Positions 20,310 through 38,030 of a DNA stretch of 64,000 nt are shown here, in pieces. The position numbers and the translations under genes were made by a program. The stretch lies in the NCBI RefSeq assembly GCF_009831455.1, contig NZ_WOWO01000002.1, positions 434,001 to 498,000 of the forward strand. Direction: 5' to 3'. The notes under the pieces were generated by a model. That model was not told the origin of the DNA. It made no database searches and saw only the letters and a list, made by a program, of their open reading frames with translations. Position 1 is the first letter of the stretch; every line of letters starts with the position of its first letter. The stretch comes from Salinirussus salinus. GTDB lineage: Archaea > Halobacteriota > Halobacteria > Halobacteriales > Haloarculaceae.

Positions 20310-21242
20310 ATGCTCGACCGCCTCATGCAGGGGTTTGACCGTGCGGTCAACTACTACCGCACGGAGGACCCGGCGACTGCGACGCGACGCCTGTCCTACG
20401 ATGTCCACGCCGAGACAGTCAGGCTCCTCTTCGAGCGGTTCGGAGAGGACTTCGGAACGCCGGTCTACGAACGGGACTGGGAGGTGCTGGTCATCCTCGA
20501 CGCCTGTCGGGCCGACCTGATGAACGAGGTGGCGGAGGAGTACCCCTTTCTGGAGCCGTACCGGATCCACAACTCGGCCGGTAGCAACTCCGGGCAGTGG
20601 ATGGACCGGAACTTCACCGAGGAGTACGCCGAGGAGATGGCGAAGACGGCCGTCGTCACCGGGAACCCCCACTCGAAGACCTATCTCGACGAGGACGATT
20701 TCCTGCTGCTCGACGAGGTCTGGCGCTACGCCTGGGAGGACGAGGACGACCTGTTCCGGCCGAACTTCATCACCGACCGTGCGGTCTCCGTGAAGCGGTC
20801 CCGGGACCCGGAACGGATGATCGTCCACTACATGCAACCACACCACCCGTTCATCCCACATTTCGACGGGTTCGAAACCGACCTCCACGAGAAGTGGCTC
20901 AACCAGTGGCGGGACGTGCGGGTCGGACACATCTCGAAGGAAGAGAAGTGGTCCCAGTACCGCGACAACCTCCACTACGTACTCGAGTACGTCGAGTTAC
21001 TGCTGCGAAGCATCGACGCCGACCCTGTCGTGATCAGCTCCGACCACGGTGAGGCGGTCGGGGAGTGGGGCATCTACGGTCACTACGGCATCCCGCTCCC
21101 GGTGTTGCGAGAGGTCCCCTGGATCGAGACGGTCGCTCGCGACACCGGGGAGTACGACCCGGAGTTCGTCCCCGAGGGCCACGACGCGTCCGGGTCTAGG
21201 CGGGACGTACAAGACCAGCTACAGAAGCTCGGATACGTGTAG
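20310..21242 (+). CDS. Alkaline-phosphatase-superfamily (sulfatase-like) protein
   Basis: 310 residues, shorter than usual sulfatases (400-550). First metal site VLVILDACRADL (about residue 60-70); second block VVISSDHGEAVGEWG followed by YGHYGIPLPVL. The expected nucleophile region reads NSAGSNSGQWMDRNF (residues 88-102), so a Ser (92 or 94) would act; there is no Cys-x-Pro-x-Arg sulfatase signature. No signal peptide or membrane segment, so it is probably cytosolic. The protein ends LQKLGYV, a tail shared with four other superfamily members in this window. Likely a phosphate or sulfate ester hydrolase or transferase acting on glycan intermediates; substrate unknown. Confidence 0.78.
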   Translation: MLDRLMQGFDRAVNYYRTEDPATATRRLSYDVHAETVRLLFERFGEDFGTPVYERDWEVLVILDACRADLMNEVAEEYPFLEPYRIHNSAGSNSGQWMDRNFTEEYAEEMAKTAVVTGNPHSKTYLDEDDFLLLDEVWRYAWEDEDDLFRPNFITDRAVSVKRSRDPERMIVHYMQPHHPFIPHFDGFETDLHEKWLNQWRDVRVGHISKEEKWSQYRDNLHYVLEYVELLLRSIDADPVVISSDHGEAVGEWGIYGHYGIPLPVLREVPWIETVARDTGEYDPEFVPEGHDASGSRRDVQDQLQKLGYV

Positions 21243-21262
21243 CTCCCCTGTCGGTGCCGGGA

Positions 21263-22291
21263 CTACCTCTCCGAGGGGGTGACCTCTACCCAGAGGTGTG
21301 TCGCCCGGTACGCGCTCTCAAGGGTCGGGTTCTGTGGGGCTTCGCCCCGGTAGAGAAGGACCGCCAGCCGCACGTCCTCGCCCGTCATCGTCGGGGTGAC
21401 CCCGTAGGTCGTGGTCCAGGTTCCTCCGTCCTCGACCGTCGGGACGAACCGCCTGAGCTCCCGCTCCTCGACGACCGTCGCCGAGTCCCCGGCAGTCTGC
21501 ATCCGCTGGAGTTTGACGACCACCGTGTACGGGACCGACTCCCCCTCGTGGTTGTCGACCCCGAGAGTGAGCGGCTCTGTCCGGCCCTGTTCGAGCACCC
21601 CGGGGTACGACCCCGCCTCGAGCTCGCCCGACTCGTTTTGCGTGAGGAGATAGAGCTCCGTGTCGCCTTCTGCGGACCCGAAGGCCACCACGTACCCCGC
21701 GCTCGCGGCGGCGACGACGAGGCTGACGGCGACGAAGACGTTGAGTACCGTATCCAGCGCCGCGTCGTCGGTGAAACCCGCGCCCGGGAGCAGGGAAGCA
21801 ACGTCGACACTGTACCGTCGATTCGCCGGGAGTTTAGCCCGCCGGACAGCGGCTGCCCCGACCGCCAGAAGCGACACGACGCTCACGGCTACGACCACGG
21901 GCGCCAGCGTGGGACCGACCCCCACGATGTCCAGTCCGATGGCGGTGAGCGGGACGATGGCGATGCTCAGGCCGACAGAGAGCACCGCCCGCTCGACGCC
22001 GTCGATGCCAGCCGTCCGCGTCGAACCGAGCGCAGAGCTTCCGCCGCTGCCCACAGCTGAATGCCGCGTACCGCGGCCGTCGGGTCCTCCTCGCTCGGGA
22101 AAGAGCGCCGCCGTACAGGCGTACCCCGGAACGAATACGACGAACAGCACGCCGACCACCCACAGTACGGAGGTCTGGACCAGCGACGTCACGACGAGTA
22201 CGTCGGTCAGTACGACGACTCCGACGACGGCCCAGAGGTCGGGCGGGAGGCTCGGGAAGGAACTCGAGGATGACCGTCTGGAGCCTGTCAC
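21263..22291 (-). CDS. DUF1616-like membrane protein
   Basis: 342 residues from GTG 22291. Two hydrophobic segments near the N-terminus (AVVGVVVLTDVLVVTSL, VLWVVGVLFVVFVPGYACTAALF), two in the middle (ERAVLSVGLSIAIVPLTAIG, VVVAVSVVSLLAVGAAA) and a fifth at VLNVFVAVSLVVAAASAGYVV. A C-terminal beta-rich extracellular domain of about 120 residues follows (LYLLTQNESGELEAGSYP, PYTVVVKLQRM, WTTTYGVTP). This is the architecture of DUF1616 proteins, which are often found in archaeal surface-glycan clusters. Function unknown; perhaps a surface anchoring or sensing protein. Confidence 0.75.
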   Translation of the reverse strand: MTGSRRSSSSSFPSLPPDLWAVVGVVVLTDVLVVTSLVQTSVLWVVGVLFVVFVPGYACTAALFPERGGPDGRGTRHSAVGSGGSSALGSTRTAGIDGVERAVLSVGLSIAIVPLTAIGLDIVGVGPTLAPVVVAVSVVSLLAVGAAAVRRAKLPANRRYSVDVASLLPGAGFTDDAALDTVLNVFVAVSLVVAAASAGYVVAFGSAEGDTELYLLTQNESGELEAGSYPGVLEQGRTEPLTLGVDNHEGESVPYTVVVKLQRMQTAGDSATVVEERELRRFVPTVEDGGTWTTTYGVTPTMTGEDVRLAVLLYRGEAPQNPTLESAYRATHLWVEVTPSER

Positions 22292-22385
22292 GTCATCGAT
22301 ATCGAGGCACGCAGTTGGTTGTTATGCAGTTCCTACGCTCGTCGAGCGACGGGCCAGCGGTACCGCGTTCCCGGACGCGCCGGGC

Positions 22386-23540
22386 TCAGCCCGTCGGCTC
22401 GGTCCGGTTGTACCAGACGTCGACGTGGGAGCCAGCGTACCCCTTCCCGACGATGTCGGGGAGCCCGTCTCCGGTCAGGTCGACCGCTTTCGCCTCGTGT
22501 GTCGGCGTTCCGCGGTCGACCACGACGTCCTCGAAACTCAGCGACCCGTCCCCGGGATTGTGGAAGATCCGGTGTGTCGGGTCGTCGTAGCCGTCAAGTC
22601 CCATCTCGGCGACGTAGATGTCCACGTGCCCGTCGCCGTCGAAATCCGCAAGCTGGAGGGTGTGCGGGTTGTAGAGGTCGTCGCGGAGGACCTTCACCTC
22701 CCAGTCCGGCGGGTCGAACACCGCCAGTCGGGCAGGCCGGTCGGCCTTGTACGGGATGTCCCCCTCGGTCACGACCAGCTCCTGCAGCCCGTCGCCGTCG
22801 AGGTCTGCGGCGGCGATCCTGGTCCACCCCCACCCCTCGGCGAGAGTCTCCCGTTCCCAGCCGCCACCCTCCGACCGGCGAAACAGTTCCGTGCCGGCGA
22901 CCAGTTCGTTTCTCCCGTCACCGTCGAGGTCGGTCACGAGGAGCCCTTCGACGGAGATGTTCTCGGCGACGAGCTGTCGCAGGTCTCGGGGCCAGGGTTC
23001 CTGGCGCGGGTTCTCGGGGATCTCGTAATACCCGAGAACGGCACTCTCCTGGGAGAGAAAGACGACCTCGCGGTCCCCGTCGCTGTCAACGTCCGCCACA
23101 GCCACGTCGTGGTACTTTTCGAAGTCCTCGGTGATGAGTCGGCGGCTCCAGGTATCCCGGGGGTCCTCGGGCTGTTCGTACCAGTAGAGGCCGGGGACCA
23201 GGTTCTGTCCGGCGACGAGGTCGGCACGCCCGTCCCCCGTCAGATCGCCGAGGGCACCGCCGACCGCCAGATGCGGTGTCACTGCTATCTCGTGTCTCTC
23301 CCAGCCCGGGTTCTCGTACCAGAAGACGTTGGTTTCGAGAGCAGCGAGCGCCGACTGGATGCCGGGGACCTGCCGCAGGTCGACGGATGCCTGTACGACC
23401 GGAACCTCTATCCACCGGTTCGCCCCGTTCGCACCGATGAGAACGTCCGGACGCCCGTTTCCGGTGAGGTCTTCGACGAGACAGAAGCTCATCCGCTCTG
23501 CGGGCGGATCCGCGTCGATCCGCTCGTGGTCGAACTCCAT
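22386..23540 (-). CDS. FG-GAP/VCBS-repeat beta-propeller protein
   Basis: 384 residues. At least seven repeats carry calcium-binding loops of the form D-x-[DT]-G-[DN]-G: DLTGNGRPD, DLTGDGRAD, DVDSDGDRE, DLDGDGRNE, DLDGDGLQE, DFDGDGHVD and DLTGDGLPD. This is enough for a closed seven-bladed propeller like integrin alpha or VCBS proteins. No signal peptide, Tat motif or membrane segment is visible and no alternative start helps, so export is unclear. It shares a strand with the DUF1616 gene 95 bp downstream. A carbohydrate-binding or lyase-like propeller role is possible but not shown. Confidence 0.85.
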   Translation of the reverse strand: MEFDHERIDADPPAERMSFCLVEDLTGNGRPDVLIGANGANRWIEVPVVQASVDLRQVPGIQSALAALETNVFWYENPGWERHEIAVTPHLAVGGALGDLTGDGRADLVAGQNLVPGLYWYEQPEDPRDTWSRRLITEDFEKYHDVAVADVDSDGDREVVFLSQESAVLGYYEIPENPRQEPWPRDLRQLVAENISVEGLLVTDLDGDGRNELVAGTELFRRSEGGGWERETLAEGWGWTRIAAADLDGDGLQELVVTEGDIPYKADRPARLAVFDPPDWEVKVLRDDLYNPHTLQLADFDGDGHVDIYVAEMGLDGYDDPTHRIFHNPGDGSLSFEDVVVDRGTPTHEAKAVDLTGDGLPDIVGKGYAGSHVDVWYNRTEPTG

Positions 23541-23961
23541 AAGTGGCGAGCCCCCTGTCCGGAGAAAAGTATGGAGTTCATAATCCCGCTCGGGGAGACC
23601 ACGAGACGCTGATGTCGCGGTCGAGGCCAGTGACTCCCCGACTGCTGGGCCAGTTCGGGCCCACCAGTTCCGGGTGGCAACCGCGCGGGAAAACGGTTAC
23701 GGGAAGTAGACGGTGTCCTGTTACGGGAAGTAGACGGTGTCCTGCCAAGCGATGCCACCCGGTCGGGTCCGGTGCAGGGGCGCCCTCCTGTCCGTCACTC
23801 TACCGGCTTTAGGAGGGTCCTGTGGCGGTATGTGCTGGCTGTTCCGCGTGACAGGACGGCCGAAGCGTCTCGGTACTGTTGACGCCGGGACGGGTAACTG
23901 ACGTCCTTCAGAGCCGGTAATACGTTCATACTATTGTCCGATACGTCCCCTCGAAAACCTG
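23541..23961 (+). other. Gene-free divergent spacer with tandem repeat
   Basis: Lies between the minus-strand FG-GAP gene and the plus-strand glycan operon. It contains a perfect 24-bp duplication at 23697-23744 and AT-richer sequence at 23905-23945 just before the operon. No protein-like frame was seen. Confidence 0.5.
23697..23744 (+). repeat. Perfect 24-bp tandem duplication
   Basis: The unit beginning TTACGGGAAGTAGACGG occurs twice with no mismatch, at 23697-23720 and 23721-23744. The exact copy implies recent replication slippage. It lies about 220 bp before the operon start. Confidence 0.9.
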
Positions 23962-24987
23962 ATGACCGACTTGCAGAAAGATACCGTGCTAGTGACGGGT
24001 GGTGGGGGGTTCATCGGCTCCCACCTGACCGAGCATCTGGTCGACCGGGGCGCCGACGTGGTCGTGGCCGACGACTTCTCGCGCGGCCGCCTGGCCAACC
24101 TCGACCACCTGCTGGAAGAGGTCGCGCTTGAACCGGTCGACCTGACCACGAGGGAGGGCTGTGTCCGGGCAGTGGAAGGCGTCGACCACGTGTTCCACCT
24201 GGCGGCGAGCGTCGGCGGGATCCACTACATCACCTCGGAGAACGTGGGCGGGCTCACCCCGAGCGTGCTGATGAACCACCACCTCCTGGAGGCGGCGCGT
24301 CGAGAGGGGGTCGACACGTTCCTGTTCGCCTCGAGCGCCTGCATCTACCGACAGCAACACGACGGGCTCAACGAGTTCTCGGAGGACCAGGCGGTTCCGG
24401 CCGACCCTCACTCGACGTACGGGTGGGCGAAGATACTGGGCGAGGTTGCCTGCGAGGCCTACCACACCGACTGCGATATCGAGACCGGCAGCGTCCGCAT
24501 CTTCAACGCGTACGGGCCACGGGAGAGCCTCGACCCGGAGAGCAGCCACGTCATCCCGTCGCTGTGCCGGAAGGCGGTTGAGACGCCCGACGGCGGTTCC
24601 ATCGAGCTGTTCGGGGACGGGACGCAGGAACGTGGTTTCATCTACGTCACCGACCTCGTCGAAGGACTGGTCCAGGCGACGGAGGTGGGGCTCGGCGGCG
24701 AGGCCATCAACCTCGGCAATGCCCAGGAAGTGGTGACGATCAACGAGCTGGCCTCGCGGATCATCGACCTCAGCGGGAAAAACATCGCGATAGAGCACGA
24801 CCGGTCGAAACCCACGGGGACGGACAGGTACTGCGCGGACACCGAGCGGATGCGGGACAGGCTCAACTGGAAGCCGCGGGTCCCGCTTGAGGAGGGGCTG
24901 CGTCGCACCTACCAGTGGGTCGAACGGGAGCTCACGGCAGCGGGTGAGGTCGCGGCCGGCCGCGAGGAGTGGGTGACCCATGACTGA
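23962..24987 (+). CDS. NAD-dependent sugar-nucleotide epimerase/dehydratase (extended SDR)
   Basis: 341 residues. NAD-binding VTGGGGFIGSHL near the N-terminus, FASSACIY with the catalytic Ser/Thr region, and the YxxxK pair in STYGWAK. FNAYGPRE and GDGTQERGFIYVTDL are typical of UDP- or GDP-sugar epimerases and dehydratases. The exact product is not readable; the sequence is closest in feel to GDP-mannose or dTDP-sugar epimerase groups. First gene of a tight operon through 32444; its last 8 bases overlap the next gene, a second enzyme of the same family. Confidence 0.88.
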   Translation: MTDLQKDTVLVTGGGGFIGSHLTEHLVDRGADVVVADDFSRGRLANLDHLLEEVALEPVDLTTREGCVRAVEGVDHVFHLAASVGGIHYITSENVGGLTPSVLMNHHLLEAARREGVDTFLFASSACIYRQQHDGLNEFSEDQAVPADPHSTYGWAKILGEVACEAYHTDCDIETGSVRIFNAYGPRESLDPESSHVIPSLCRKAVETPDGGSIELFGDGTQERGFIYVTDLVEGLVQATEVGLGGEAINLGNAQEVVTINELASRIIDLSGKNIAIEHDRSKPTGTDRYCADTERMRDRLNWKPRVPLEEGLRRTYQWVERELTAAGEVAAGREEWVTHD

Positions 24988-25999
24988 GTGGGGCGGCGAG
25001 CGCGTGCTCGTGACTGGGGGGGCGTCGTTCATCGGGTCACACCTGGTCGAGGACCTGGTCTCGGCGGGAGCGCGGGTCCGCGTCGCGGACGACCTCTCGA
25101 GCGGCGAGCGGGAGAACCTCGCCACCGTCGAGGACGATATCGAACTCCGGGTGGGGAACCTCAAGCGGATGGGGTTTGCCGAAGACGCCACCGCTGGCGT
25201 CGACACCGTGTTCCACCTCGCGGCCGACCACGGCGGCCGGGGATACATCGCGAACTACCCGGCGAACTGTGCCACGAACATGGCGCTGGACAACGTCGTC
25301 TACGAGGCCGCCGTGGCCAACGACGTCGACCGGATCTGCTTCGCCTCCAGCGCCTGTACCTACCCCACTGACATCCAGCAGGAGCGCCAGCGGTTGCGCG
25401 AGGAGATGGTCAGTTTCGACGAGCGCGGGGGCGCGTACGCCGACGAGGTGTACGGGTGGGCGAAGCTCATGGGCGAACGCTCCCTGCAGGCCTACGAGGA
25501 GCAGTACGACATCGACGCCTCGATCGTCCGGATATTCACGGCCTACGGCCCCCGGGAGAACGAGACCCACGCCATCATCGCTCTGATCGCCAAGGCCTAC
25601 GCCGGTCAGGACCCCTACCGGGTCTGGGGGGACGGCGAACAGACCCGCAACTTCACTTACGTCGAGGACATCACGAGAGCGCTGCGCCTCGCCGCCGAGA
25701 ACGTCACCGACGCTACTCCCGTCAACGCCGGGATCAGCGACTACATCAGTATCAACCAGGTCGCGGGGGCGGTCTTCGACCGGCTCGGCTGGGAACCCGA
25801 CGAGGTGGAGTACCTGACGGACAAGCCGGTCGGGGTCCGACACCGGGCGGCCGACACGACCCGCGCCGAAGAGCTGCTCGGCTGGGAACCACGGCACACG
25901 CTCCAGGACGGGATCGACCGGACTGTCGACTGGTATCTGGAGCACCGCGACGAGGACCACGTCAGGGACAACCTCGAGACGCTGTTGCACGAGCGGTGA
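24980..25999 (+). CDS. Second NAD-dependent sugar-nucleotide epimerase/dehydratase
   Basis: 339 residues; ATG 24980 lies inside the end of the previous gene (ATGACTGA overlap). VTGGASFIGSHL, LAADHGGRGYI, FASSACTYP and VYGWAKLMGE are the SDR landmarks. HGGRGYI with the SSACTYP block recalls GDP-mannose 3,5-epimerase-like enzymes, but this is a weak inference. It is clearly a paralogue of its neighbour (same landmarks and spacing), so the two may do successive steps on one sugar nucleotide or form a heteromer. Confidence 0.87.
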   Translation: MTEWGGERVLVTGGASFIGSHLVEDLVSAGARVRVADDLSSGERENLATVEDDIELRVGNLKRMGFAEDATAGVDTVFHLAADHGGRGYIANYPANCATNMALDNVVYEAAVANDVDRICFASSACTYPTDIQQERQRLREEMVSFDERGGAYADEVYGWAKLMGERSLQAYEEQYDIDASIVRIFTAYGPRENETHAIIALIAKAYAGQDPYRVWGDGEQTRNFTYVEDITRALRLAAENVTDATPVNAGISDYISINQVAGAVFDRLGWEPDEVEYLTDKPVGVRHRAADTTRAEELLGWEPRHTLQDGIDRTVDWYLEHRDEDHVRDNLETLLHER

Positions 26000-26008
26000 G
26001 CCAGACCC

Positions 26009-27286
26009 ATGAGCGACGCCCCAAAGGAGTACGTGCTCGTAACGGAGTACTTCCACCCCGACACCGCCTCGACGGGACAGCTGATGACCGACCTCGCGGT
26101 CGGCCTCGTCGAGCGCGGGCTCGACCTGTCGGTGTACACCGGGCAACCGAACTACCACGCGAGCGATACGGGTCGCCAGCCACACCAGGAGACTCACGAA
26201 GGTGTTCCGGTCACGCGGATCCGTGCCCCGCAGGTCAGCCAGTCCTCGCTCCCGAGACGGCTGTTCAACTGGGGCGTGTTCACCGTCTGGATGGTGCTCG
26301 TGCTCGCCCGCGACCGGACGGCGGACCGCGAGCTCGTCTTCGTCTCGAACCCGCCGGTTCTCCCGCCGGCCATGTGGCTGCTGTGCAAGCTCAAGGGCTG
26401 GGAGTACACCTACATCGTCTACGACCTGTACCCGGACGTCGTGGCCGCCTCGGGGCACATCCGTGAGGGGGGCGTCGTCTACCGGGCCTGGGCAGCCGTC
26501 AACGAACACGTCTTCGCGGACGCCAGCAACGTCGTCGCCCTGGGGCCGGTGATGCGCGACCACATCGTCGAGGCTGCGGGCGAGGACTTCGACCCGGAGA
26601 CCGTCGAGGTCATCCACAACTGGGCGGACGGGGAGTCGATCCGGCCGATGGAGAAATCGGAGAACTGGTTCAGCGAGGAACACGACCTCGTCGAGCCGTT
26701 CACGCTGGTTTACTCCGGCAACATCGGCGCGAACCACGACCTGGAGACGGTCGTCGAGGCCGCCCGCTCCTTCCAGGACGACCCGGTCCGGGTGCTGGTC
26801 ATCGGCGAGGGTGACAGGAAAGACGAGGTCGTCGCGCTGGCCGAGCGGTATGGCCTCCGGGGAGACACCGTGCGCTTCCTCCCGTACCAGGACCTCGGGG
26901 TCCTCCCGTACACACTGACCAGCGGGGACGTCTCGGTCGTCTCCGTCGACGCCGGGATGAAGGGGCTGTGTGTCTCGTGTAAGCTCTACACCTCACTGGC
27001 CGCCGGCCAGCCGGTCCTGGCCATCTCACACCCCGACGACGACGAGGCGCGGCTGGTGGAACGCCACGACGCGGGACAGGTCGTGAGACAGCACGACGTC
27101 GAGGGGGTCGTCGAGGCGGTCCAGCGGTGGCGGGGAGACCCCGACCTCGTCGAGCGGCAGGGGCGAAACGCCCGCGAGGCGTTCGAGTCGAACTACACGA
27201 AAGAACAGTCGGTCGACGAGTACTACCGGCTGCTCTCGGACGCACCCCGGGTCCGGGTGGAGCCGCCACAGGGAGGAAGCCGGTAG
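26009..27286 (+). CDS. Glycosyltransferase family 4 (WbuB-like)
   Basis: 425 residues. The N-terminal Rossmann lobe holds YFHPDTASTGQLMTDLA and VYTGQPNYHA; the C-terminal lobe holds LVYSGNIGANHDLETVVEAA, LPYQDLGVLPYTL and KLYTSLAAGQPVLAI. This is the pattern of GT4 enzymes such as WbuB that transfer a sugar (often an N-acetylated hexosamine) to a growing lipid-linked oligosaccharide on the cytosolic membrane face. One hydrophobic stretch (FTVWMVLVLA, VLPPAMWLLCKL) may dip into the membrane. Nine bases after the previous stop; the following start codon is directly adjacent. Confidence 0.88.
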   Translation: MSDAPKEYVLVTEYFHPDTASTGQLMTDLAVGLVERGLDLSVYTGQPNYHASDTGRQPHQETHEGVPVTRIRAPQVSQSSLPRRLFNWGVFTVWMVLVLARDRTADRELVFVSNPPVLPPAMWLLCKLKGWEYTYIVYDLYPDVVAASGHIREGGVVYRAWAAVNEHVFADASNVVALGPVMRDHIVEAAGEDFDPETVEVIHNWADGESIRPMEKSENWFSEEHDLVEPFTLVYSGNIGANHDLETVVEAARSFQDDPVRVLVIGEGDRKDEVVALAERYGLRGDTVRFLPYQDLGVLPYTLTSGDVSVVSVDAGMKGLCVSCKLYTSLAAGQPVLAISHPDDDEARLVERHDAGQVVRQHDVEGVVEAVQRWRGDPDLVERQGRNAREAFESNYTKEQSVDEYYRLLSDAPRVRVEPPQGGSR

Positions 27287-28900
27287 ATGGAGGTGATCCT
27301 CGTCGGGCTGGACGGATTAGAGCCGACCCTGGTCGAGGAGTGGGAGCAGGACCTCCCCACGCTCCGGTCGCTGCGCGAGCGCGGCTCTTCTGGGGGGGTC
27401 CGGTCCTCCGACCCGCCGCTGTCGGCGCCTGCGTGGCCGTGGATCTTCACCGGGAAACAGGGTGGCAAGCACGGCTGCTTCGGGTTCACGAAGCGCGAGT
27501 CGGGCGGGTACGGCCGGACGCCCGTCAACTACGGCGACATCCACGCCGAGTCGCTGTGGGAGGCGCTCGACGCCGCCGGAGTGTCCTGTGGGGTCGCCAA
27601 CGTCCCGCTGAGCTACCCGCCGAGCGACCTCGACCACGGGTACGTCGTCGCGGGCTGGCCGGTCCCGAACCGGGTCACGGTGAGCGAGCCGCCGGGAGTC
27701 GTCGAGACCGTGGAACGACACCTCGACGAGCGGTACCGGGTCCACCCGTTCAGCATGGGGCCGGAGCTCCAGCGGGCGAGCGACGAGGAGGTGCTCGCGG
27801 ACCTCACCGACGGGCTCTGGCACCACCAGCGGGCCTTCGAGACACTCGTCCGCGAGACGGACGTGGACGTGTTCTTCTGTGTGTTCATGGCTTCCGACGT
27901 CGGCGGCCACTACCTCGGACGCAACCGCGAGCTGCTCCACGACCTCTACGTGGAGGTCGACAGTGCACTCGGGGAGCTGCTCGAGGCGTGTCCGTCGGGC
28001 GTTGACGTGGTCGTGATGAGCGACCACGGCCACGCGGCACTCAGCGACTGGAACTTCTACATCAACGAGTGGCTCCGGCAGGAGGGGTACCTCGCCGTCG
28101 ACGACGCGACGGGGACGGATTTCCGGTCGCTGTTGCGCCGGGCCGGGCTGACCCGGGACCGGCTGGTCGGTGTGAAATCCGCGCTCGGACTGGATGACGT
28201 CCGGAGCCGTCTCCCGCAGCCGGTGTTCGATGCGCTCCGGCGCGTGGTCCCGCCGGCCGACCCCGGTAGCGAGGGGTTCGATCCCGACCGCGTCGAGTGG
28301 GAGCGGACGGAAGCGTACAGCCCCGACCAGAACGTGGTGTACCTCAACGCGGAGGAGACACACCCACAGGGGACAGTCGCGGCCGCGGACGCGGAGCGGA
28401 CGGCCGACGAGATCGAGGCAAAGCTCCGGGAGCTTGACCACCCGGAACCCGGACGCGACGACCGACTGGTCACCAGCGTCGGCCGCAAGGAAGCGGTCTT
28501 CCGGGGCCCCTTTACCCCGGACGCGCCCGCCCTCGTCCCGATAGCCGACGACATGCGGGTGACGGTCCAGACGGGGTTCAACGACGGCGAGGTCTTCGCC
28601 CGCGACGAGTGGAGCGAGCACCGCCAGGTCGGAACGCTCGTCACCGCGGGACCGTCGTTCGGCCAGACGGCGGACGTCGACGAACGGAGCATCCTCGACG
28701 TCTACCCGCTCGTGCTGGAGCTGGTCGACACGGCCGTTCCCGAGAACGCCGACGGCGAGGTCCCGGGAGACCGGCTCAGTTACGACCCGGACCCGGCGAC
28801 CCGCGAGAGCAACGACGGCCACTCCGAGGCCCGCGAGTACACGGACGACGAGCGCGAGGAGGTCAGAGACCAGCTGAACAGCCTCGGGTACCTCGAGTGA
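27287..28900 (+). CDS. AP-superfamily phosphohydrolase/phosphodiesterase (COG3379-like)
   Basis: 537 residues. First metal site ILVGLDGLEP at the very N-terminus; PPLSAPAWPWIFTG gives the nucleophile position (Ser46, where nucleotide pyrophosphatase-like enzymes have Thr); the second metal block is VVVMSDHGHAALSDW followed by FYINEWLRQEGYL. This order fits the predicted AP-superfamily phosphohydrolase/phosphomutase group. No signal peptide, so cytosolic. The protein ends LNSLGYLE, the tail seen in the cluster's other AP-superfamily proteins. It probably cleaves or transfers a phosphate-linked group on a sugar or lipid-linked intermediate. Confidence 0.82.
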   Translation: MEVILVGLDGLEPTLVEEWEQDLPTLRSLRERGSSGGVRSSDPPLSAPAWPWIFTGKQGGKHGCFGFTKRESGGYGRTPVNYGDIHAESLWEALDAAGVSCGVANVPLSYPPSDLDHGYVVAGWPVPNRVTVSEPPGVVETVERHLDERYRVHPFSMGPELQRASDEEVLADLTDGLWHHQRAFETLVRETDVDVFFCVFMASDVGGHYLGRNRELLHDLYVEVDSALGELLEACPSGVDVVVMSDHGHAALSDWNFYINEWLRQEGYLAVDDATGTDFRSLLRRAGLTRDRLVGVKSALGLDDVRSRLPQPVFDALRRVVPPADPGSEGFDPDRVEWERTEAYSPDQNVVYLNAEETHPQGTVAAADAERTADEIEAKLRELDHPEPGRDDRLVTSVGRKEAVFRGPFTPDAPALVPIADDMRVTVQTGFNDGEVFARDEWSEHRQVGTLVTAGPSFGQTADVDERSILDVYPLVLELVDTAVPENADGEVPGDRLSYDPDPATRESNDGHSEAREYTDDEREEVRDQLNSLGYLE

Positions 28901-28902
28901 CC

Positions 28903-30204
28903 ATGAACGGGGATTCCACACAGCGTCGACGGACGGGTACCGGGCCGGACACCACGGGCGACTCCGCCACGCGGCCCGACGTGGTGCTGGTCACCATCGA
29001 CGCGTGGCGGGCGGACGCCGTCGAACGGATGCCCGCCCTCCGACGGCTCGCTGCGGAGAACGGGTACGACAGGTCCCGGGCGGTCAGCGGCTCGGCGGCC
29101 ACTCACGGGGCCTTCCCCCCGATCCTGGCGAGCGACCACATCGTGCGGACCTACGACACGGAGGGGGGGCTCAGACCCGGCACCAGCCCGTTGCCCGAGG
29201 TCCTCGCCGACCACGGGTACCGGACGGGCGCGGTCGTCGGCTCGAACCCCTTCCTCGCGCGGTGGAGCCGGTGTTTCGACTACTTCTGGAACGACGGCAT
29301 GCGGGACGACGTCGAGTTCGGCGGGCCGAACTACTCGACGGTCGACAGAGTACAGCGGTTCCTCCGGTTGCAAAAGCGCGTGACGGCCACCGAGGTCGCC
29401 GAACGGGCGAGCGAGTGGTACCGGGAGCAGGACCCACCGCGGTTCCTCTGGATGCACCTGATGGACGCTCATGGGCCGTATTTCCCCGGGTTGCGCGGCG
29501 CACGGCGGACCGGAGTCTACAGGACCTACCGGACGCTGTTCGACTACCACGTTCGCGACCGACAGTCACCGGAGACGCTGGCCCGCCTCCGGGAGCTGTA
29601 CCACAGGTGTCTCGAACGCCTCGACGACCGGCTTGCAGCCGTTCTCGATTTCGTCGACTCGGACGCTGTGGTGGTCCTGACCGGCGACCACGGCGAGGAG
29701 TTCGACCACGGCTTCCACGGCCACGCACAGCTGTACGACGAGTGTGTCACGACGCCGCTCCTGACCGCGAACCTGTCGCACCCGACGGCGGAGTGTGACG
29801 TCCGCCACCTCGACGTCGGGCCGACGATTCTGGACGAGGTCGGACTCCCGTCCCCCGCGACCTGGGCCGGTACGCCGGTCGACGGGACGACCCGGCACGC
29901 GCTGCTGTTCAACCACTCCCCCGACCACGAGCGGACCTACGTCGGCGTCAGGACCGGCCGGTACAAGTTCATCAAGAGCTTCGACCACGAGCGGTGGACC
30001 GTCGAGGGACGGACCCTCTACGACCTAGCGGCCGACCCCGAGGAGCGGACGCCCGTCGAAAACCCCGACGTGGCCCGGGAGCTCGAGCGGACGGTCGATT
30101 CGTTCCTGGCGCGGGAGGACGTCGAACTGGAGACGATCAGACAGACGACGACCGGCATCGACGCCGATGTCGAACGGCGCCTCGAGGAGTTGGGATACGT
30201 ATGA
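28903..30204 (+). CDS. Sulfatase-like AP-superfamily enzyme with Thr nucleophile
   Basis: 433 residues from ATG 28903, two bases after the previous stop. Metal site VVLVTIDAWRADA; nucleophile region SGSAATHGAFPPILAS with Thr67 where sulfatases have Cys or Ser and no Arg two residues later; metal block VVVLTGDHGEEFDHGFHGHAQLYDE. Automatic annotation would call it a sulfatase, but formylglycine cannot form from Thr. Thr is used by phosphoethanolamine and phosphoglycerol transferases of the same superfamily, although those are membrane proteins and this one has no membrane segment. It ends LEELGYV. Its stop overlaps the next start (ATGA). Confidence 0.82.
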   Translation: MNGDSTQRRRTGTGPDTTGDSATRPDVVLVTIDAWRADAVERMPALRRLAAENGYDRSRAVSGSAATHGAFPPILASDHIVRTYDTEGGLRPGTSPLPEVLADHGYRTGAVVGSNPFLARWSRCFDYFWNDGMRDDVEFGGPNYSTVDRVQRFLRLQKRVTATEVAERASEWYREQDPPRFLWMHLMDAHGPYFPGLRGARRTGVYRTYRTLFDYHVRDRQSPETLARLRELYHRCLERLDDRLAAVLDFVDSDAVVVLTGDHGEEFDHGFHGHAQLYDECVTTPLLTANLSHPTAECDVRHLDVGPTILDEVGLPSPATWAGTPVDGTTRHALLFNHSPDHERTYVGVRTGRYKFIKSFDHERWTVEGRTLYDLAADPEERTPVENPDVARELERTVDSFLAREDVELETIRQTTTGIDADVERRLEELGYV

Positions 30205-32444
30205 CGGGAGCGGCCGCGTGGCTTCTCGCGACGGCTGGCGGCTCCGGCGTCCCGGGTCCGAACGCCGCGGCGGCAGCCCTGTTGGCCGTCCCCGGTTTCG
30301 TCGGGGAGGTCCCGCTCGTGCCCGGAGCCTCGCTGCTCGGTGGCTCACTCGTGGGGTATCTCGTCTACCGAGTGGTGTCGGGCTCGGGCGACGGGGCCGG
30401 TGGAGACTCGGCCCCGCTGACGGGGGTGCGCTCGAGTTCGACCAGGCAGGCAGCCGGACGGGCGGGCGCGACCGGGTCCGGGTCCCGGGCCGGCCGGCTG
30501 CTACTGCTCGGCGTGCTCGTCGCGTTGCACGCCGCGGTCCTCGTCGGCCTGGTGCTGGCCGTCGACAGCGGCCGCTCGCGGTTCTTCGGGATGACGGTCA
30601 TCGGTCTCGCCTCGGCGCTCCTGCTCGATTTCCTGCTGTTTGCCCCCTACGACCGGGTCGCGACGGCGGTCTTCGAGCGGACCCGGCCGGTCTGGGTTGT
30701 CTACCAGGACCCGCGGTTCGCCACCGGGACGCTCGCGCTCGCGGCGAGCGCGCTTCTCGTCGTCGGCCGCGGGGTCGTCTTCTTTCTGATGGTCGCCCTG
30801 CTGTTCGGTTCGCTGGTGCTCCGTGCCGTGCTGGCAGACGACGAGTCCGTCGCCACCCCGGGCACACTCGCGCTGCTCGGGGGTGGGGCAGGGCTGTTGC
30901 TCGCCGCACAGGCGCTGACCGTCCCCTACTACGTCCGGACCCTCGATACCGTCTACCACGCGACGCTGGCCGAACGGATCACCTCCGCGGGGAGCCTCGC
31001 GGCGGTCGCGGGGACGAGGTACGCCGACCTCCCGCTGTTTCACACGCTGTCGAGCGTGCTGGCCCAGATGACCGGGATGGACGCCAGGACGCTGATGGGC
31101 GTGTTGTTCGTCGTGCTGTTCCCGGTCGTCGTGGTCGCCGGGTTCGCGCTCGTCCGGAACCTCACCGGGTCCCGCAGGCTCGGTGTCCTGGCGGGGGCGC
31201 TGGCGGCGTTCAGCCCGGAGTTCGTCGCGTGGGGGACCCAGGCACACGTCCAGTCACTGAGCTTCGTGTTCCTCGCGGTGTTCGGCCTCCTGTTCACCAA
31301 GTGGCGGACGGACCACCGGTTCACCGCGGCCGCGGCCGTCGTGACCCTCGCCTGGATACTGACCCACCACCTCAGCGTCTTCATGGCTGTCGTCCTCCTC
31401 GGCGTCTGGGCGGTCTGGCTGCTCTGGGCGGCAGTCGGCCGTTCGGATATCGGCCCGGTCCGGCGACCGCTTTACCAGTACGTCGTCCTGACTATCTCCG
31501 TCGCCGTCTACTGGGTGGTCTCGGGCGTCGTCTGGGTGCCGATCAACTGGGTCACCGAGTTCAGCCCCGCGGCCAGCTCGGGCGCGCCGACGACGCAGTT
31601 CCTGATCGAGTTCTACTCCGGGCCGCTCGAGCTGTTCGGCGCAGCCGCGCCCTTCCTGTTCACCCAGCTCCACTACGTTCCGTTCCTCGCTCTCGCCGGC
31701 TACGGGCTCTGGACCGTCCTCCGGTCGGGTGGGGAGGTGCCGAGCCGCGTCTACCCCATGGTACTCCTGGGGTTTTTCGCGGCCATCCTGGTCTTCGTTC
31801 CGAACCCGGCCTGGCTCGTCGCCCGGGGGATCGGCGCGCTGAACCGGTGGGGCATCATGGCGCTTCTGTTCGTCGTCCCCGTCGCCGCACTGGGGCTCGA
31901 GCGCCTCACCGCCGATTCGAGCCGCGGCGGCGCCGTCCCCATCGTCGCGCTGTTGGTCGTGACGATGGCCGTCCTCTCGGTCGGTGCGGGGTTCACCGAC
32001 CCGTCGATAGCAGACGAGGCGGGATACGACAAGGGCGCCCGGAAGCACCTCTCGACGGGGGACATCGACGCGGCCGCGCACGTCCTCCAGTACTCCGACG
32101 ACGGTCCCGTCGGAAGCTCGCACGTGATGAGCGGCTACATGGCACACGCTGTCTGGGCCGACCTGGCCCCGGAGCGCCCGTCGCGGTTCACCACCCTGTC
32201 CGTCAGGGAAGGACAGCTCCTCACGGAGCCGGGGCTGACGCTCATCGAGGAACAGTCCCTCCGCACGGACGGCGTGAAGATGACGCTCCAGCCCCCCGAG
32301 TCCGAGGTGTACGACGGGAGCGTGAGCGTTCTCGCGCCGGTGTCGCTGGACGCCGAGGCGCTGGCACTCGACCGGCGGAGCGTCGTCTACGACAACAGCG
32401 ACACGGTAGTCACCTTCCAGACCGACGACGCAGACGGGGGCTGA
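30201..32444 (+). CDS. Large multispanning membrane protein, GT-C-like or polymerase candidate
   Basis: 747 residues from ATG 30201 (ATGA overlap with the previous stop). About 14-16 hydrophobic segments fill residues 1-610, e.g. LLLLGVLVALHAAVLVGLVLA, LLFVVLFPVVVVAGFALV and ISVAVYWVVSGVVWVPI. The last ~120 residues form a soluble, probably extracellular domain with HVMSGYMAHAVW. The loop after the first C-terminal-half helices holds TVYHATLAERITSAG and YADLPLFHTLSS. This layout suits a GT-C glycosyltransferase or glycan polymerase, as expected at the end of such an operon. No WWDYG oligosaccharyltransferase motif was seen, so it is not AglB. Confidence 0.75.
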   Translation: MTGAAAWLLATAGGSGVPGPNAAAAALLAVPGFVGEVPLVPGASLLGGSLVGYLVYRVVSGSGDGAGGDSAPLTGVRSSSTRQAAGRAGATGSGSRAGRLLLLGVLVALHAAVLVGLVLAVDSGRSRFFGMTVIGLASALLLDFLLFAPYDRVATAVFERTRPVWVVYQDPRFATGTLALAASALLVVGRGVVFFLMVALLFGSLVLRAVLADDESVATPGTLALLGGGAGLLLAAQALTVPYYVRTLDTVYHATLAERITSAGSLAAVAGTRYADLPLFHTLSSVLAQMTGMDARTLMGVLFVVLFPVVVVAGFALVRNLTGSRRLGVLAGALAAFSPEFVAWGTQAHVQSLSFVFLAVFGLLFTKWRTDHRFTAAAAVVTLAWILTHHLSVFMAVVLLGVWAVWLLWAAVGRSDIGPVRRPLYQYVVLTISVAVYWVVSGVVWVPINWVTEFSPAASSGAPTTQFLIEFYSGPLELFGAAAPFLFTQLHYVPFLALAGYGLWTVLRSGGEVPSRVYPMVLLGFFAAILVFVPNPAWLVARGIGALNRWGIMALLFVVPVAALGLERLTADSSRGGAVPIVALLVVTMAVLSVGAGFTDPSIADEAGYDKGARKHLSTGDIDAAAHVLQYSDDGPVGSSHVMSGYMAHAVWADLAPERPSRFTTLSVREGQLLTEPGLTLIEEQSLRTDGVKMTLQPPESEVYDGSVSVLAPVSLDAEALALDRRSVVYDNSDTVVTFQTDDADGG

Positions 32445-32480
32445 CCGGGTCGGTGTCGTCGGCCGGTCAGGCACGGCCCT

Positions 32481-32540
32481 GACCGGACGCGATCCAACCG
32501 GGCGCGACGCGACCGGACACGACCCGACCGAATGCGGCCG
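32481..32540 (+). repeat. Four imperfect 15-bp tandem repeats
   Basis: Units start at 32481, 32496, 32511 and 32526: GACCGGACGCGATCC, AACCGGGCGCGACGC, GACCGGACACGACCC, GACCGAATGCGGCCG. They lie in the 202-bp gap between the operon end and the next gene. Confidence 0.65.
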
Positions 32541-32646
32541 GTCTCCACCGGATGCTAGTCGTGCCGCCGGAGAGCGGCGTTGGAGCCGGCCTACCGGGTG
32601 CTATGCCGTCGTTTACTAAGTGTGCTGCGGGGCCTTCGAACAGGTC

Positions 32647-33936
32647 GTGAGGGACATCATTCAGGTGACGGCAGACAGCCTCCGCGCGGACCACTGTGGC
32701 TGGCAGTCCGGGGCCGCCACGACGCCGAACTTGGACCGGCTGGCCCGGGACTCTCTGGTGTTCGAGACGGCGGTCGCACCGGGGCCGCGGACGCTCTCGT
32801 CCGTCCCGGTTTCCCAGACCGGAACCCCGTTCGCGCCCAACAGGCACGGAACCGACAGCTACGAGGACCGGGCCTCGCGCATCCGGAGCCACCTCGAGCG
32901 GTTCCGGACCGTCAGTCAGCGGCTTCGCGAGGAGGGATACACCACGGTCGCGTTCACCGCCAACCCCTGGACGTCGACCAACACCGACTTCGACGCCGGG
33001 TTCGACCGGTTCCACGAGGTGGGGCGGACCGGCGGCCGGCTGATCTCGCTGTTCGACGGCACGCCGGTCGAGAAACCGGCCATCCTGGCCGACCGCTGGC
33101 TGTCCAACGACACCTGGTTCTCGCAGTGGCGGACCTTCTACGACGACATCCGGGCGACACTCGAGGAGGTCGACGGGCCGGTGTACGTCTGGGTCTTCCT
33201 CATGGACACGCACAACCCCTACATCGTCCCGAGGCAGGACCGCCAGGAGTCCTCGGCGTTCGGAATGTGGGCGGCCTCGCTGAGAGCGAACCGGGTCCTC
33301 GGCACGAAGGGCGACCGGACCGCCTACGGGTCGAACATCGACGACACCACCCTCCGGCGGCTCGGGCAGGCCTACCGCGACGGAGTCCGCTCGGTCGACG
33401 CGTTCGTCGACCGGCTGATGGGCGACCTCGCGGAGGACGCCGTTCTCCTCTTTCACTCGGACCACGGCGAGGGGTTCGGGGAACACGGGACGTACGGCCA
33501 CACCCCGGTGCTCTACGAGGAGAACCTCCACGTCCCGCTTCTGGTCCACGGCACCGACACCGACGGGACCGTGGAGGCGCCGGTCTCGACGGCTCGCATC
33601 CCGGAGATACTGCTCTCGTGTGCACGCGAGGAGCCACTCGAGGCCGGGGACCTGACCTCCGGGCACGCCGTCGCGCGAACCGAATCCGACGACGCCATCG
33701 CCCTCCGGGGCGAGCGCTGGAAGTACGTCCGCCGCGAGGACGAGGAACGGCTGTACGACCTGCAGGCTGACTCGGGCGAGACGTCCGACGTCGGCGGCGA
33801 GAACCCCGCGGTCCGCTCGGAGATGCGCGGAGCCTGCGACGAGTATCTCGACGCGCTGCCCGAGCCCTCGGTGTCGGCGACGGTCGAGGAGGACGAGGAC
33901 GTCAAGCGTCACCTCCGTTCGCTCGGGTACCTCTGA
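32647..33936 (+). CDS. Sulfatase-like AP-superfamily enzyme with Thr nucleophile
   Basis: 429 residues. GTG 32647 is chosen because MRDIIQVTADSLRADHCGW is the usual start of this family; GTG 32620 would add nine residues (MCCGAFEQV). Nucleophile region APGPRTLSSVPVSQTG has Thr49 in place of the sulfatase Cys and no downstream Arg. Metal block LLFHSDHGEGFGEHGTYGHTPVLYEE, then substrate-side ALRGERWKYVRRE. No signal peptide. It ends LRSLGYL. It stands after a 202-bp gap, so it may be a separate unit from the 23962-32444 operon. Activity on sulfate or phosphate groups cannot be decided. Confidence 0.82.
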   Translation: MRDIIQVTADSLRADHCGWQSGAATTPNLDRLARDSLVFETAVAPGPRTLSSVPVSQTGTPFAPNRHGTDSYEDRASRIRSHLERFRTVSQRLREEGYTTVAFTANPWTSTNTDFDAGFDRFHEVGRTGGRLISLFDGTPVEKPAILADRWLSNDTWFSQWRTFYDDIRATLEEVDGPVYVWVFLMDTHNPYIVPRQDRQESSAFGMWAASLRANRVLGTKGDRTAYGSNIDDTTLRRLGQAYRDGVRSVDAFVDRLMGDLAEDAVLLFHSDHGEGFGEHGTYGHTPVLYEENLHVPLLVHGTDTDGTVEAPVSTARIPEILLSCAREEPLEAGDLTSGHAVARTESDDAIALRGERWKYVRREDEERLYDLQADSGETSDVGGENPAVRSEMRGACDEYLDALPEPSVSATVEEDEDVKRHLRSLGYL

Positions 33937-33972
33937 GGGTGCCGGTCCCCGGCGTGTCGTGTCCCGAACCGC

Positions 33973-35166
33973 TCACTCCGGGCAGACTCTGCGGTAGATG
34001 TCGACGTAGGACTCAGCAGTATTTCGTATGCTGAAGTGCTCGCGCACCCGCTGGTGACCGTTCCGACCCATCCGTTCCCGACGGTCCGCCGGGGCCACCC
34101 GCACCATCGCATCCGCCAGCGCCTCCGGCGAGTCCGGCGGAACCACGACCCCGGTGGACCCGTCGTCGACGGCCTCGGCGGTCCCCGGGACGTCGGTCCC
34201 GACGACTGGGAGGCCGGCCGCCATCGCCTCGAGGAGGACGACGCTCAACCCCTCGGTCAGGGAGGGCAGCACGAACACGTCGGCCAGCGAGTAGTACTCC
34301 TGGACCGACTCCACCCGCCCCGTGACGGTCACGCTCTCCTCGATGCCGTGACGGACGGTCGCCTCCCTGAGGTCGGCCTCGAGGGGTCCCCACCCGACGA
34401 GAAACAGATGTGACGAGGGGAGCGCCTCGACGACGTCGGCCATCGCCGCCACGAGGCTCAGCTGGTTTTTCTCCTCGACGTACCGTCCCACACTGAGGAA
34501 GACAACTCCCTCGCCGTCATCCGGGCGCTCATGGCGGTTCTCGGGGGTCGCGCTGTCGACCTGACTGGCGAACTCGTCGACGTCGATCCCGTTGTGGATC
34601 GTGTAGGTCTCCCGACCGAAACTACCGCCGGCGCCGGGGTTGTACAAGTCGGCCGACCCGGCGTAGGAGCGCTCGACGTCCTTCGAGACGGCGATGTCCA
34701 CGGCGCTGAGTGGCCGGGTCGCGCGCTCGAGTACCCGCGTCCCCGGGTGGTAGGTCTCCCTGGTGTTGTGGTAGGTCCCGACCACCGGCGTCCCCGACAG
34801 CCGTCCACAGACCCGGCCGACCACCGGGACGTACAGCGAGACGTGGGTGTGGAGCACGTCGAACGACCCCTCTCGGAGAAACTGCCACAGGCGCAGCAGG
34901 CTCCGGGGGTCGAACTGGTCCGCCGCCGTCGGCCCGGTCGTCTCGAGCCGCCGCACGTCGGCCCCCGCCCGCTCCATCTCCTCGAGCAGACTGTCGTCGT
35001 CCCCGAAGTAGCAGACGGTGTGGGAGACCGGATACCCCTCCATCGCCTCCACGAGCCGGAGAAGCTGGTTCTCGACCCCGCCCAGCGCCAGGTGGTGGAG
35101 CAGGTGACACACCCGTATCCCGCTCGGTGCGCCCGCGTCTCCGCTCCGGCGGTCGGGTCCGGACAT
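33973..35166 (-). CDS. Glycosyltransferase family 4
   Basis: 397 residues. CHLLHHLALGGVENQLLRLVEAM is the N-terminal acceptor lobe; NGIDVDEF, FLSVGRYVEEKNQ and PSLTEGLSVVLLEAMAAGLPVVGT with the EGxxxxxLEA motif are the GT4 donor-binding lobe. It transfers a nucleotide-sugar to a growing glycan in the cytosol. Last gene of a minus-strand trio: three bases separate its ATG from the stop of the AP-superfamily gene upstream. Confidence 0.9.
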   Translation of the reverse strand: MSGPDRRSGDAGAPSGIRVCHLLHHLALGGVENQLLRLVEAMEGYPVSHTVCYFGDDDSLLEEMERAGADVRRLETTGPTAADQFDPRSLLRLWQFLREGSFDVLHTHVSLYVPVVGRVCGRLSGTPVVGTYHNTRETYHPGTRVLERATRPLSAVDIAVSKDVERSYAGSADLYNPGAGGSFGRETYTIHNGIDVDEFASQVDSATPENRHERPDDGEGVVFLSVGRYVEEKNQLSLVAAMADVVEALPSSHLFLVGWGPLEADLREATVRHGIEESVTVTGRVESVQEYYSLADVFVLPSLTEGLSVVLLEAMAAGLPVVGTDVPGTAEAVDDGSTGVVVPPDSPEALADAMVRVAPADRRERMGRNGHQRVREHFSIRNTAESYVDIYRRVCPE

Positions 35167-35169
35167 CGC

Positions 35170-36573
35170 TCAGAGATACCCGAGGTCCTCGAGCCTCGAC
35201 TCGACGTCGCCCTCGACTGCCTCGTTCCATTCCCCGGCGTCGAGGTCGAGCCGGTCGAACCGGTCGGCGACCGCTCGCCTGACCGGGCTGCTCTCCGTCG
35301 CGTGGTCGGTGACGGCGACCCGCTGTTCGCCCCCGCCGCGCAGGTCGTACAGGCGCGCCTCGTCTCTGATCTCGTCGCGCTCGTACAGCCAGTCATCCGA
35401 CCGGGCGCCGACGACAACCTCGCCCTCGACCTCGTGTTCCGCGAGCACGTGCTCCCGCGGGTCGTCGATCCCGGGCCGTCGGCCCCGATAGGTCGCCGGG
35501 ACGTCGAGCCCTGCGGCCTCGTGGACGAGCGGCGGGACGTCGAGGAGGCTGACGAGGTCCCCGGTCGCGTCGTCCAGGTGCCCCGGGCCGTTGAGGACGA
35601 CGAGGGGGACCCTGATGAGCTCGTCGTACATCCGCTCGGGCTTCCCGTAGCTCCCCCGCTCCCCGAACAGTTCGCCGTGGTCGGAAGTCAACACAACCAG
35701 CGTGTCCTCGAGCCGCCCGCTCTCCGCGAGGTGACGGAGCACCCGACCGACCTGGTCCTCGGTGTACCGTATCGACGCCCTGTAGAGCCGGTAGAGCGCG
35801 TCCGCCTGCTCTTCGGTGAGCGCGTCCGGGTCGCCCAGCGACATCGAGTACCACTCGCCCACTTCCGACTGCGTGACCTCCGCCACGCCGAACTCCGAGC
35901 GGTACTCCGCCGGGGGAAAGCAGGGGTGGTGGACGTCCATGAAGTGCGTCCAGCAAAAAAACGGGTCGCCCGCCGTCTCCAGCCAGTCGACCGTGTCGTC
36001 GACGATCACATCCGCACTCACGTACGGGCGTGGCTTGCCCCGCAGCAACTGGTAGGCCTTCCGTACGGCGTCGGTCAGGTGGAGATACCGGTCGATCCGC
36101 CGGAGCCTGGGGTTGTTGATCTCGATCCCGCGGGGGAAGACCCGCGTCGCCAGCCCCATCAGCGGGTTCTGGTAGTCTTCGAACGTGTTGAACCCGACGT
36201 GGTACTCGAAGTGCTCGGAGAGAAACGGGTTACACTGGAAGCCGGCGGTGTCGTACCCCTCCTCGCGCAGGTGCGTCGCGACCCGCGGTCTGTCGGGGGA
36301 CAGCGGGCCGAGGCCGCCGTAGGACAGCGGCATCGTCCCGGTGAGCAGGGCCGGAAACGAGGGGGAGGTCCCCGGCCCGGTCGCAAAGGCCCTCTCGAAC
36401 CGGGTCTGTCGGACGTGCTCGCCGGCGGTCGACCGGAAAAAATCCGGACCGAACCCGTCGCGCGGGACGGCGTCCCAGCGGAGCGAGTCGACGGTCAGCA
36501 GCAGGACGTTCGGCCGGTCGGACGTCTCACGGGTCCTCTCTCGACGGTCCGCCGTAGGTGGCGTGTCAGGCAC
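35170..36573 (-). CDS. Sulfatase-like AP-superfamily enzyme with Thr nucleophile
   Basis: 467 residues from GTG 36573; an ATG at 36597 would add eight residues. I prefer the GTG because GGAGG ends 8 nt before it, whereas nothing precedes the ATG. Metal site NVLLLTVDSLRWDAV; nucleophile region FATGPGTSPSFPALLTG has Thr69 where CxPxR sulfatases have Cys, and Phe in place of Arg; metal block VVLTSDHGELFGERGSYGKPERMYDELIRVPL, where the Lys matches ordinary sulfatases. CWTHFMDVHHP adds a His pair. No signal peptide; ends LEDLGYL. Overlaps the preceding GT4 gene by 8 bases and lies 3 bases before the next. Confidence 0.83.
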   Translation of the reverse strand: MPDTPPTADRRERTRETSDRPNVLLLTVDSLRWDAVPRDGFGPDFFRSTAGEHVRQTRFERAFATGPGTSPSFPALLTGTMPLSYGGLGPLSPDRPRVATHLREEGYDTAGFQCNPFLSEHFEYHVGFNTFEDYQNPLMGLATRVFPRGIEINNPRLRRIDRYLHLTDAVRKAYQLLRGKPRPYVSADVIVDDTVDWLETAGDPFFCWTHFMDVHHPCFPPAEYRSEFGVAEVTQSEVGEWYSMSLGDPDALTEEQADALYRLYRASIRYTEDQVGRVLRHLAESGRLEDTLVVLTSDHGELFGERGSYGKPERMYDELIRVPLVVLNGPGHLDDATGDLVSLLDVPPLVHEAAGLDVPATYRGRRPGIDDPREHVLAEHEVEGEVVVGARSDDWLYERDEIRDEARLYDLRGGGEQRVAVTDHATESSPVRRAVADRFDRLDLDAGEWNEAVEGDVESRLEDLGYL

Positions 36574-37738: not shown

Positions 37739-38030
37739 CGGTCGACGTTGCCGTGTTGCCGGCATTAGTGTACGGTGCATACCGGCCCGGTAGGCTCTGA
37801 CTTCGGTCGCTCGGTAGCCACTCTTTTCGGCAGTCGTCGCCGGCGGCTCTGCGGGGCCGAACGACGGCACACGTTCGGGGGTCCGCCGTCGTGGCACGTG
37901 CCCGGAAACCGGACGCGGGCCGGTTTCGGGCGGCTTACCCGCGCCCGGCCGTTCCGTGACGGCGCCTCGAGCGAGCGACCGACCGCGTAGGGAGCGTAAA
38001 CTCAAGACGGTCTCCCCCCAATGGGAGGCC

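Follow-up and report, generated by a model that had tools for sequence, protein, structure and literature searches.

Introduction

In Halobacterium salinarum, three genes of the alkaline phosphatase (AlkP) superfamily were deleted by Zaretsky et al. (2025; PMC11980604), and the products of two of them, Agl30 (VNG1056C) and Agl31 (VNG1057C) of the aglB cluster, were identified by deletion and heterologous expression as glycan sulfotransferases. They sulfate a lipid-linked tetrasaccharide, and their deletion removes sulfate rather than letting it accumulate. Agl31 is soluble and cytosolic and Agl30 is membrane-linked; for the third protein, VNG1063H, no effect on sulfation of the tetrasaccharide was detected. 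In Haloferax volcanii, Agl7 has a part in sulfating a dolichol-linked hexose (PMC3871713). Here we describe five AlkP-superfamily genes, named A to E, in a glycan island of the haloarchaeon Salinirussus salinus. They lie in a 64,000-nucleotide stretch (contig NZ_WOWO01000002.1, C2:434001-498000; hereafter the window) of the 3.37 Mb host genome (G000).

Our analysis indicates that A to E are probably, though by no means certainly, cytosolic AlkP transferases of the Agl30/Agl31 kind, and most likely sulfotransferases acting on glycan precursors. The observed basis of this assignment is the protein family, the conserved residues, the predicted fold, the setting of the genes and a shared C-terminal tail; sulfotransfer by the five enzymes would follow by analogy with the experiments on their relatives. 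A first-pass annotation of the window had suggested a modification that it did not know to be described, a view that the work on Agl30 and Agl31 does not support (PMC11980604). The sulfotransferase role itself is known from these relatives, and what is new here is an LxxLGY tail common to A to E and to a CysD-like (sulfate adenylyltransferase-type) protein.

Results

All five open reading frames (ORFs) of the first-pass annotation were recovered inside 16 kb of the island (20310-36597). A (20310..21242, 310 aa), B (27287..28900, 537 aa), C (28903..30204, 433 aa) and D (32647..33936, 429 aa, with a GTG start and a possible start at 32620) are on the forward strand, and E (35170..36597, 475 aa) is on the reverse strand. 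The earlier description of all five as sulfatase-like holds for C, D and E, which exceed the cut-off of Pfam Sulfatase (PF00884) in a profile scan; A matches PF00884 in its C-terminal half only, with a score under the cut-off, and B is no sulfatase-like protein but a PF01663 phosphodiesterase/nucleotide pyrophosphatase (NPP) protein (123.5 bits against a cut-off of 23). The host genome has 11 PF00884 matches, of which three above the cut-off, plus A below it, fall within the 16 kb. As the annotation had proposed, the proteins appear soluble, and no membrane helix was found in any of the five by Kyte-Doolittle analysis (maximum 19-residue mean <=1.3). Exported enzymes and chance clustering of the five genes were considered and rejected.

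At the predicted nucleophile position, three proteins carry Thr (C, T67, codon 29101-29103; D, T49, codon 32791-32793; E, T77, reverse-strand codon 36367..36369) and two carry Ser (A, S94, codon 20589..20591; B, S46), a division that the first-pass annotation had read correctly. Likewise, no C/S-x-P-x-R signature was found in A to E or in 111 non-redundant E-type homologues, in which position 77 is Thr in 98, Ser in nine, Cys in none and a gap in four. Position 94 of the A-type homologues is Ser (90) or Thr (33) in 123 of 124 genome-encoded sequences; in viral contigs it is Thr in 28/30 and Ser or Thr in 29/30. For B, Thr occupies position 46 in four of the five aligned homologues, with Ser in B itself, and in C the nucleophile sits in an unusual ATHGAF motif. 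An initial candidate nucleophile in A, S89 (invariant in 41 sequences), was dropped and replaced by S94 because the larger A-type set has Ala at 89 and Ser/Thr at 94.

The alignments recover the motif-1 Asp (D64 in A, D37 in E), the nucleophile and the Asp-His pair (D245/H246 in A, D246/H247 in B, D306/H307 in E) that are expected of the superfamily. The nucleophile of AlkP enzymes usually opens a helix, and in AlphaFold models of A (pLDDT 89.6, pTM 0.90) and E (pLDDT 87.5, pTM 0.86), the two proteins modelled, a helix begins exactly at S94 (residues 94-101) and at T77 (residues 77-86). Metal-ligand geometry in A and E is a prediction only, because the model coordinates were read without superposition. 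In a profile comparison of the two subfamily alignments (A1 versus A2), the C-terminal halves alone align, with the nucleophile region outside the alignment.

These residues bear on whether the five proteins could be hydrolases of sulfatase, phosphodiesterase or phosphonate type that edit or salvage glycan intermediates. By profile, C, D and E lie nearest to sulfatases, to choline sulfatase and to phosphonate monoester hydrolases, as such a role would predict. The formylglycine site is, however, missing from all five proteins and from the 111 homologues, and a profile search for the formylglycine-generating enzyme (FGE, PF03781) gave no match in the host or in G064, a genome which we take to be Hbt. 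salinarum on 100% bacteriorhodopsin identity (the anaerobic maturase anSME was outside this search). A true sulfatase identity was considered and rejected. Moreover, the five paralogues sit among biosynthetic genes and deletion of the relatives loses sulfate instead of building it up, which makes hydrolysis in general decidedly improbable.

All five proteins end in LxxLGY: LQKLGY in A (21219..21236), LNSLGY in B (28874..28891), LEELGY in C (30181-30198) and LRSLGY in D (33913-33930), all on the forward strand, and LEDLGY in E (35176..35193, reverse strand). The tail hardly varies across three AlkP subfamilies, and the alignments of two of them define its invariant residues (L304, L307, G308 and Y309 in A; L469, L472, G473 and Y474 in E). 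In a set collected with patterns that excluded the tail, 121 of the 124 genome-encoded A-type members have it. Only 9/30 viral A-type members do so by the strict pattern, so the catalytic core can exist tail-less. In the models of A and E the tail lies in low-confidence segments and is not confidently docked. Separately, we observed 29 viral contig stretches (L173-L201) encoding A-type proteins, mostly Thr-type and mostly tail-less; in one of them (L187) the tail is carried by an adjacent overlapping methyltransferase-like gene and not by the AlkP gene.

A six-frame search for L..LGY with restricted codons in the host and G064, incomplete in that it missed A's own tail, returned 59 sites. The 14 distinct ones within four codons of a stop belong to eight AlkP proteins, one CysD-like protein per genome and four small proteins, one of which has a sub-cut-off ribbon-helix-helix (RHH) match. 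Over all fetched loci, 262 of the 283 unique tailed ORFs are AlkP proteins and 13 are CysD-like, these having been fetched as such; a few others make up the rest. Small tailed proteins, some of them RHH-like, are encoded at L218:1492-1704, L224:1135-1530, L236:1530-1901, L227:1492-1716 and L109:4095-4304, one adjoining the CysD-like gene and others upstream of tail-less AlkP genes. In two Halegenticoccus loci (L109, L110) the small tailed gene is directly followed by a tail-less AlkP gene, and one host gene run (L057:14262-18020) contains both kinds. Literature searches on the tail and on the haloarchaeal sulfate donor found nothing relevant.

The CysD-like host protein is encoded outside the window (L204:532-1506; C1:610032-611006). 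It is 77% identical to its G064 counterpart (L205:428-1399), with which it shares the end MERLRDLGYM. The protein is present in all 10 genomes examined (host, G064 and eight others; 12 copies), and every copy ends in LM.RLRDLGYM. Its best families are CysD models, at 72.5 bits against a curated cut-off of 396.6, and CysD 1ZUN_A is the sole relative of solved structure. The ends of three bacterial CysD proteins read ME.[KR]KR[EQ]GYF, and it looks as if the haloarchaeal end has drifted toward the LxxLGY of the AlkP proteins.

In profile searches of the same 10 genomes, neither ATP sulfurylase PF01747 (CysN lay outside the search) nor the sulfotransferase family PF00685 was detected. A real adenylyl sulfate (APS) kinase was recovered in G194 only, with the proviso that absence by profile is not proof. 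Matches to APS kinase PF01583 at about 25 bits were discarded: one was scanned and is FtsY-like (PF00448, 231.6 bits), and the G064 match reads alike. Supply of 3'-phosphoadenylyl sulfate (PAPS) is not evident in the host because PF01747 and a real APS kinase are undetected and the CysD matches are sub-cut-off. The CysD-like protein is the cell's only candidate for an enzyme that activates sulfate. The families of the PAPS route also go undetected in the Hbt. salinarum-like genome, although Hbt. salinarum sulfates its glycans.

The first-pass annotation had suggested a phospho-modification, in which A to E would be cytosolic transferases of phosphoethanolamine, phosphoglycerol or a similar group onto glycan precursors through a Thr/Ser phospho-enzyme, as in LtaS and EptA. 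The Thr/Ser residues suit such a role, B belongs to PF01663, and the nearest solved folds of the A model are the phosphoethanolamine transferases EptA, MCR-1 and ICR-Mc, with sulfatases next. Structure prediction, which the annotation proposed as a check, was made for A and E, and the E model is close to glycan sulfatases and choline sulfatases (BT1596 and FA22070 among them) and not to LtaS/EptA. Furthermore, phospholipid-head-group donors are membrane-facing and A to E are soluble, the only experimentally studied haloarchaeal relatives are sulfotransferases, and the tail shared with the CysD-like protein points to sulfate. The masses in the study of those relatives are reported to 0.01 m/z, which by our own calculation is too coarse to tell sulfate from phosphate; that the group is sulfate in Hbt. 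salinarum rests on earlier NMR cited there (PMC11980604). Overall we regard phospho-transfer by the set as unlikely and the earlier suggestion as unsupported. Any one of the five, B most of all, might still be a phospho-transferase.

B is the least certain of the five, and a structure-relative search returned no close solved structure for it. Its PF01663 membership, and the unusual motif of the divergent C, raise the prospect that one or the other is a nucleotide-sugar pyrophosphatase or a binding protein, placed in the cluster by shared island ancestry. Both proteins nevertheless retain the catalytic Asp/His, a Thr/Ser at the nucleophile position and the LGY tail, and we hold such a departure by some members to be rather unlikely.

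Agl30, Agl31 and VNG1063H were compared with A to E through the peptides encoded by their published primers, not through full sequences. The VNG1063H peptide VHYFQPH is a hallmark of the A type (its median normalised score is 0.87 among A-type proteins and 0.24 among others), which places VNG1063H firmly in A's subfamily. For Agl30, the best A-type counterparts of DFGHLDM and ITDRTV are 24 residues apart with their order kept; this match, weaker than that of VNG1063H but consistent with the A type, makes Agl30 probably a member too. The Agl31 peptides hold no subfamily information. By primer translation all three proteins end in LGY. The Agl30/Agl31 primers have no exact match in the loci scanned for them, with scattered matches of 3-4 mismatches only, and one exact primer has no match in the genome contigs. 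In G064 the aglB contig stops just past aglB, and the remaining aglB cluster was not located in that genome.

E-type homologues occur in 277/293 genomes of the order (E<=1e-20) and A-type homologues in 252/293 (E<=1e-10; up to 11 per genome), a larger scale than the first-pass annotation implied. Close E orthologues (51-62%) were found in nine genomes, in four of which (L036, L037, L039, L042) E lies near the set of two short-chain dehydrogenase/reductases (SDRs) and a glycosyltransferase that precedes B in the window: SDR1 (23962..24987; closest solved relative GDP-mannose 3,5-epimerase), SDR2 (24980..25999), a second sugar-nucleotide SDR, and a WcaI-like GT4 glycosyltransferase (26009..27286), all on the forward strand. 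One genome, G287, additionally encodes A (73%) and B (53%). Judged from this recurrence, E and the SDR1-SDR2-GT4 set behave like a shared glycan module.

The island as a whole encodes three GT4 and three GT2 glycosyltransferases, the two adjacent SDRs, a flippase, an oxidoreductase, a multi-pass DUF6541-like membrane protein (30249..32444, forward strand, weak match) and two alginate-lyase-domain (PF05426) proteins. A reverse-strand GT4 gene (33973..35166) adjoins E. Like agl30 and agl31, the five AlkP genes thus lie among glycan-assembly genes (glycosyltransferases, SDRs, flippase), in keeping with the earlier view that a soluble Thr/Ser set here probably modifies glycan precursors. The two PF05426 proteins (37956-39392, 45865-49020) are possible uronate-modifying or glycan-cleaving enzymes. 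A DUF1616 membrane protein and an FG-GAP protein (21263-23540) form a pair that is retained next to an A homologue in a haloarchaeal metagenome-assembled genome (L095). Just upstream of the island is a phage-type integrase (16339-17364), which might account for the island's patchy distribution.

Discussion

In the mechanism we propose, sulfate would pass from an activated donor to sugars of glycan precursors, carried on lipid or on nucleotide, that the glycosyltransferases and SDR enzymes encoded nearby assemble; the five enzymes would differ in the sugar or position that each modifies. A single divalent metal would have as its ligands the Asp of motif 1, the nucleophilic Thr/Ser and the Asp-His pair of the DHG block, and the Thr/Ser would accept the sulfuryl group and then hand it over to a sugar hydroxyl. 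Conservation of Thr/Ser with absence of Cys, the lack of a host FGE and the lack of PF00685 in the 10 genomes support a sulfotransferase role. Several points weigh against it. A Thr nucleophile is characteristic of phosphotransferases, and the nearest folds of A are phosphoethanolamine transferases. The CysD-like protein scores far below its cut-off, and PAPS supply is not evident. Among the characterised relatives, the firmest A-type member, VNG1063H, is the one with no detected effect on sulfation, and the subfamily links to Agl30/Agl31 rest on primer peptides, tails and the InterPro and DALI statements of the paper (PMC11980604). The safest statement is that A to E belong to the AlkP-type haloarchaeal glycan-modifying enzymes and are probably sulfotransferases.

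In nine of the 10 haloarchaea examined, among them the Hbt. salinarum-like genome, the standard PAPS enzymes are either absent or not recognised. The link between tail and CysD-like protein is a correlation between sequences. Docking, the donor and the direction in which the group would move are hypothetical, and through its tail each AlkP enzyme may be coupled to the activation of sulfate. We tentatively propose, as a scheme that we ourselves consider doubtful, that haloarchaeal glycan sulfation is non-canonical: the CysD-like protein would make adenylyl sulfate, and Thr/Ser AlkP enzymes docked via LxxLGY would sulfate glycan precursors with no need of APS kinase or of classical sulfotransferases that use PAPS. 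In some cases a small protein would provide the docking tail in trans.

Sulfotransferases of the AlkP type were discovered recently and their mechanism is a blank, the 2025 paper making no mention of donor, active site or nucleophile (PMC11980604). What this locus and its 280-odd relatives add is a nucleophile conserved as Thr/Ser, alignments of two subfamilies backed by confident models, and a tail that hardly varies and has a candidate partner. Glycan sulfation without a recognisable PAPS route in archaea becomes testable, and the donor might be approached through the candidate partner of the tail. Haloarchaeal 'sulfatase' annotations may often denote transferases.

Compared with known systems, C, D and E share the fold, motif-1 Asp, Arg and DHG block of the PF00884 enzymes (formylglycine sulfatases, choline sulfatase, phosphonate monoester hydrolases); the formylglycine sulfatases have Cys in a C-x-P-x-R motif, whereas C, D and E have Thr in its place, are intracellular and belong to a host without FGE. 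With EptA/MCR and LtaS, A to E have in common the Thr/Ser nucleophile and the Asp/His metal site, and A its best fold matches (EptA/MCR); LtaS and EptA, in contrast, have a membrane domain and an extracytoplasmic catalytic domain, and A to E are soluble without a membrane segment or any sign of a phospholipid donor. B has the PPLSAPAW...TGK motif and the DHG of the type I phosphodiesterase/NPP family but ends in the LGY tail. Agl7 is comparable through its reported function, a contribution to sulfation of a dolichol-linked sugar. The closest likeness is to Agl30, Agl31 and VNG1063H, which are sulfatase-annotated AlkP proteins with LGY C-termini encoded in a glycan-assembly cluster; Agl31 is soluble, as A to E are, and the structures named for Agl30 and Agl31 (BT1596 and FA22070; PMC11980604) are also neighbours of E. 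There the genes number three and here five, in a different island with no aglB within the window.

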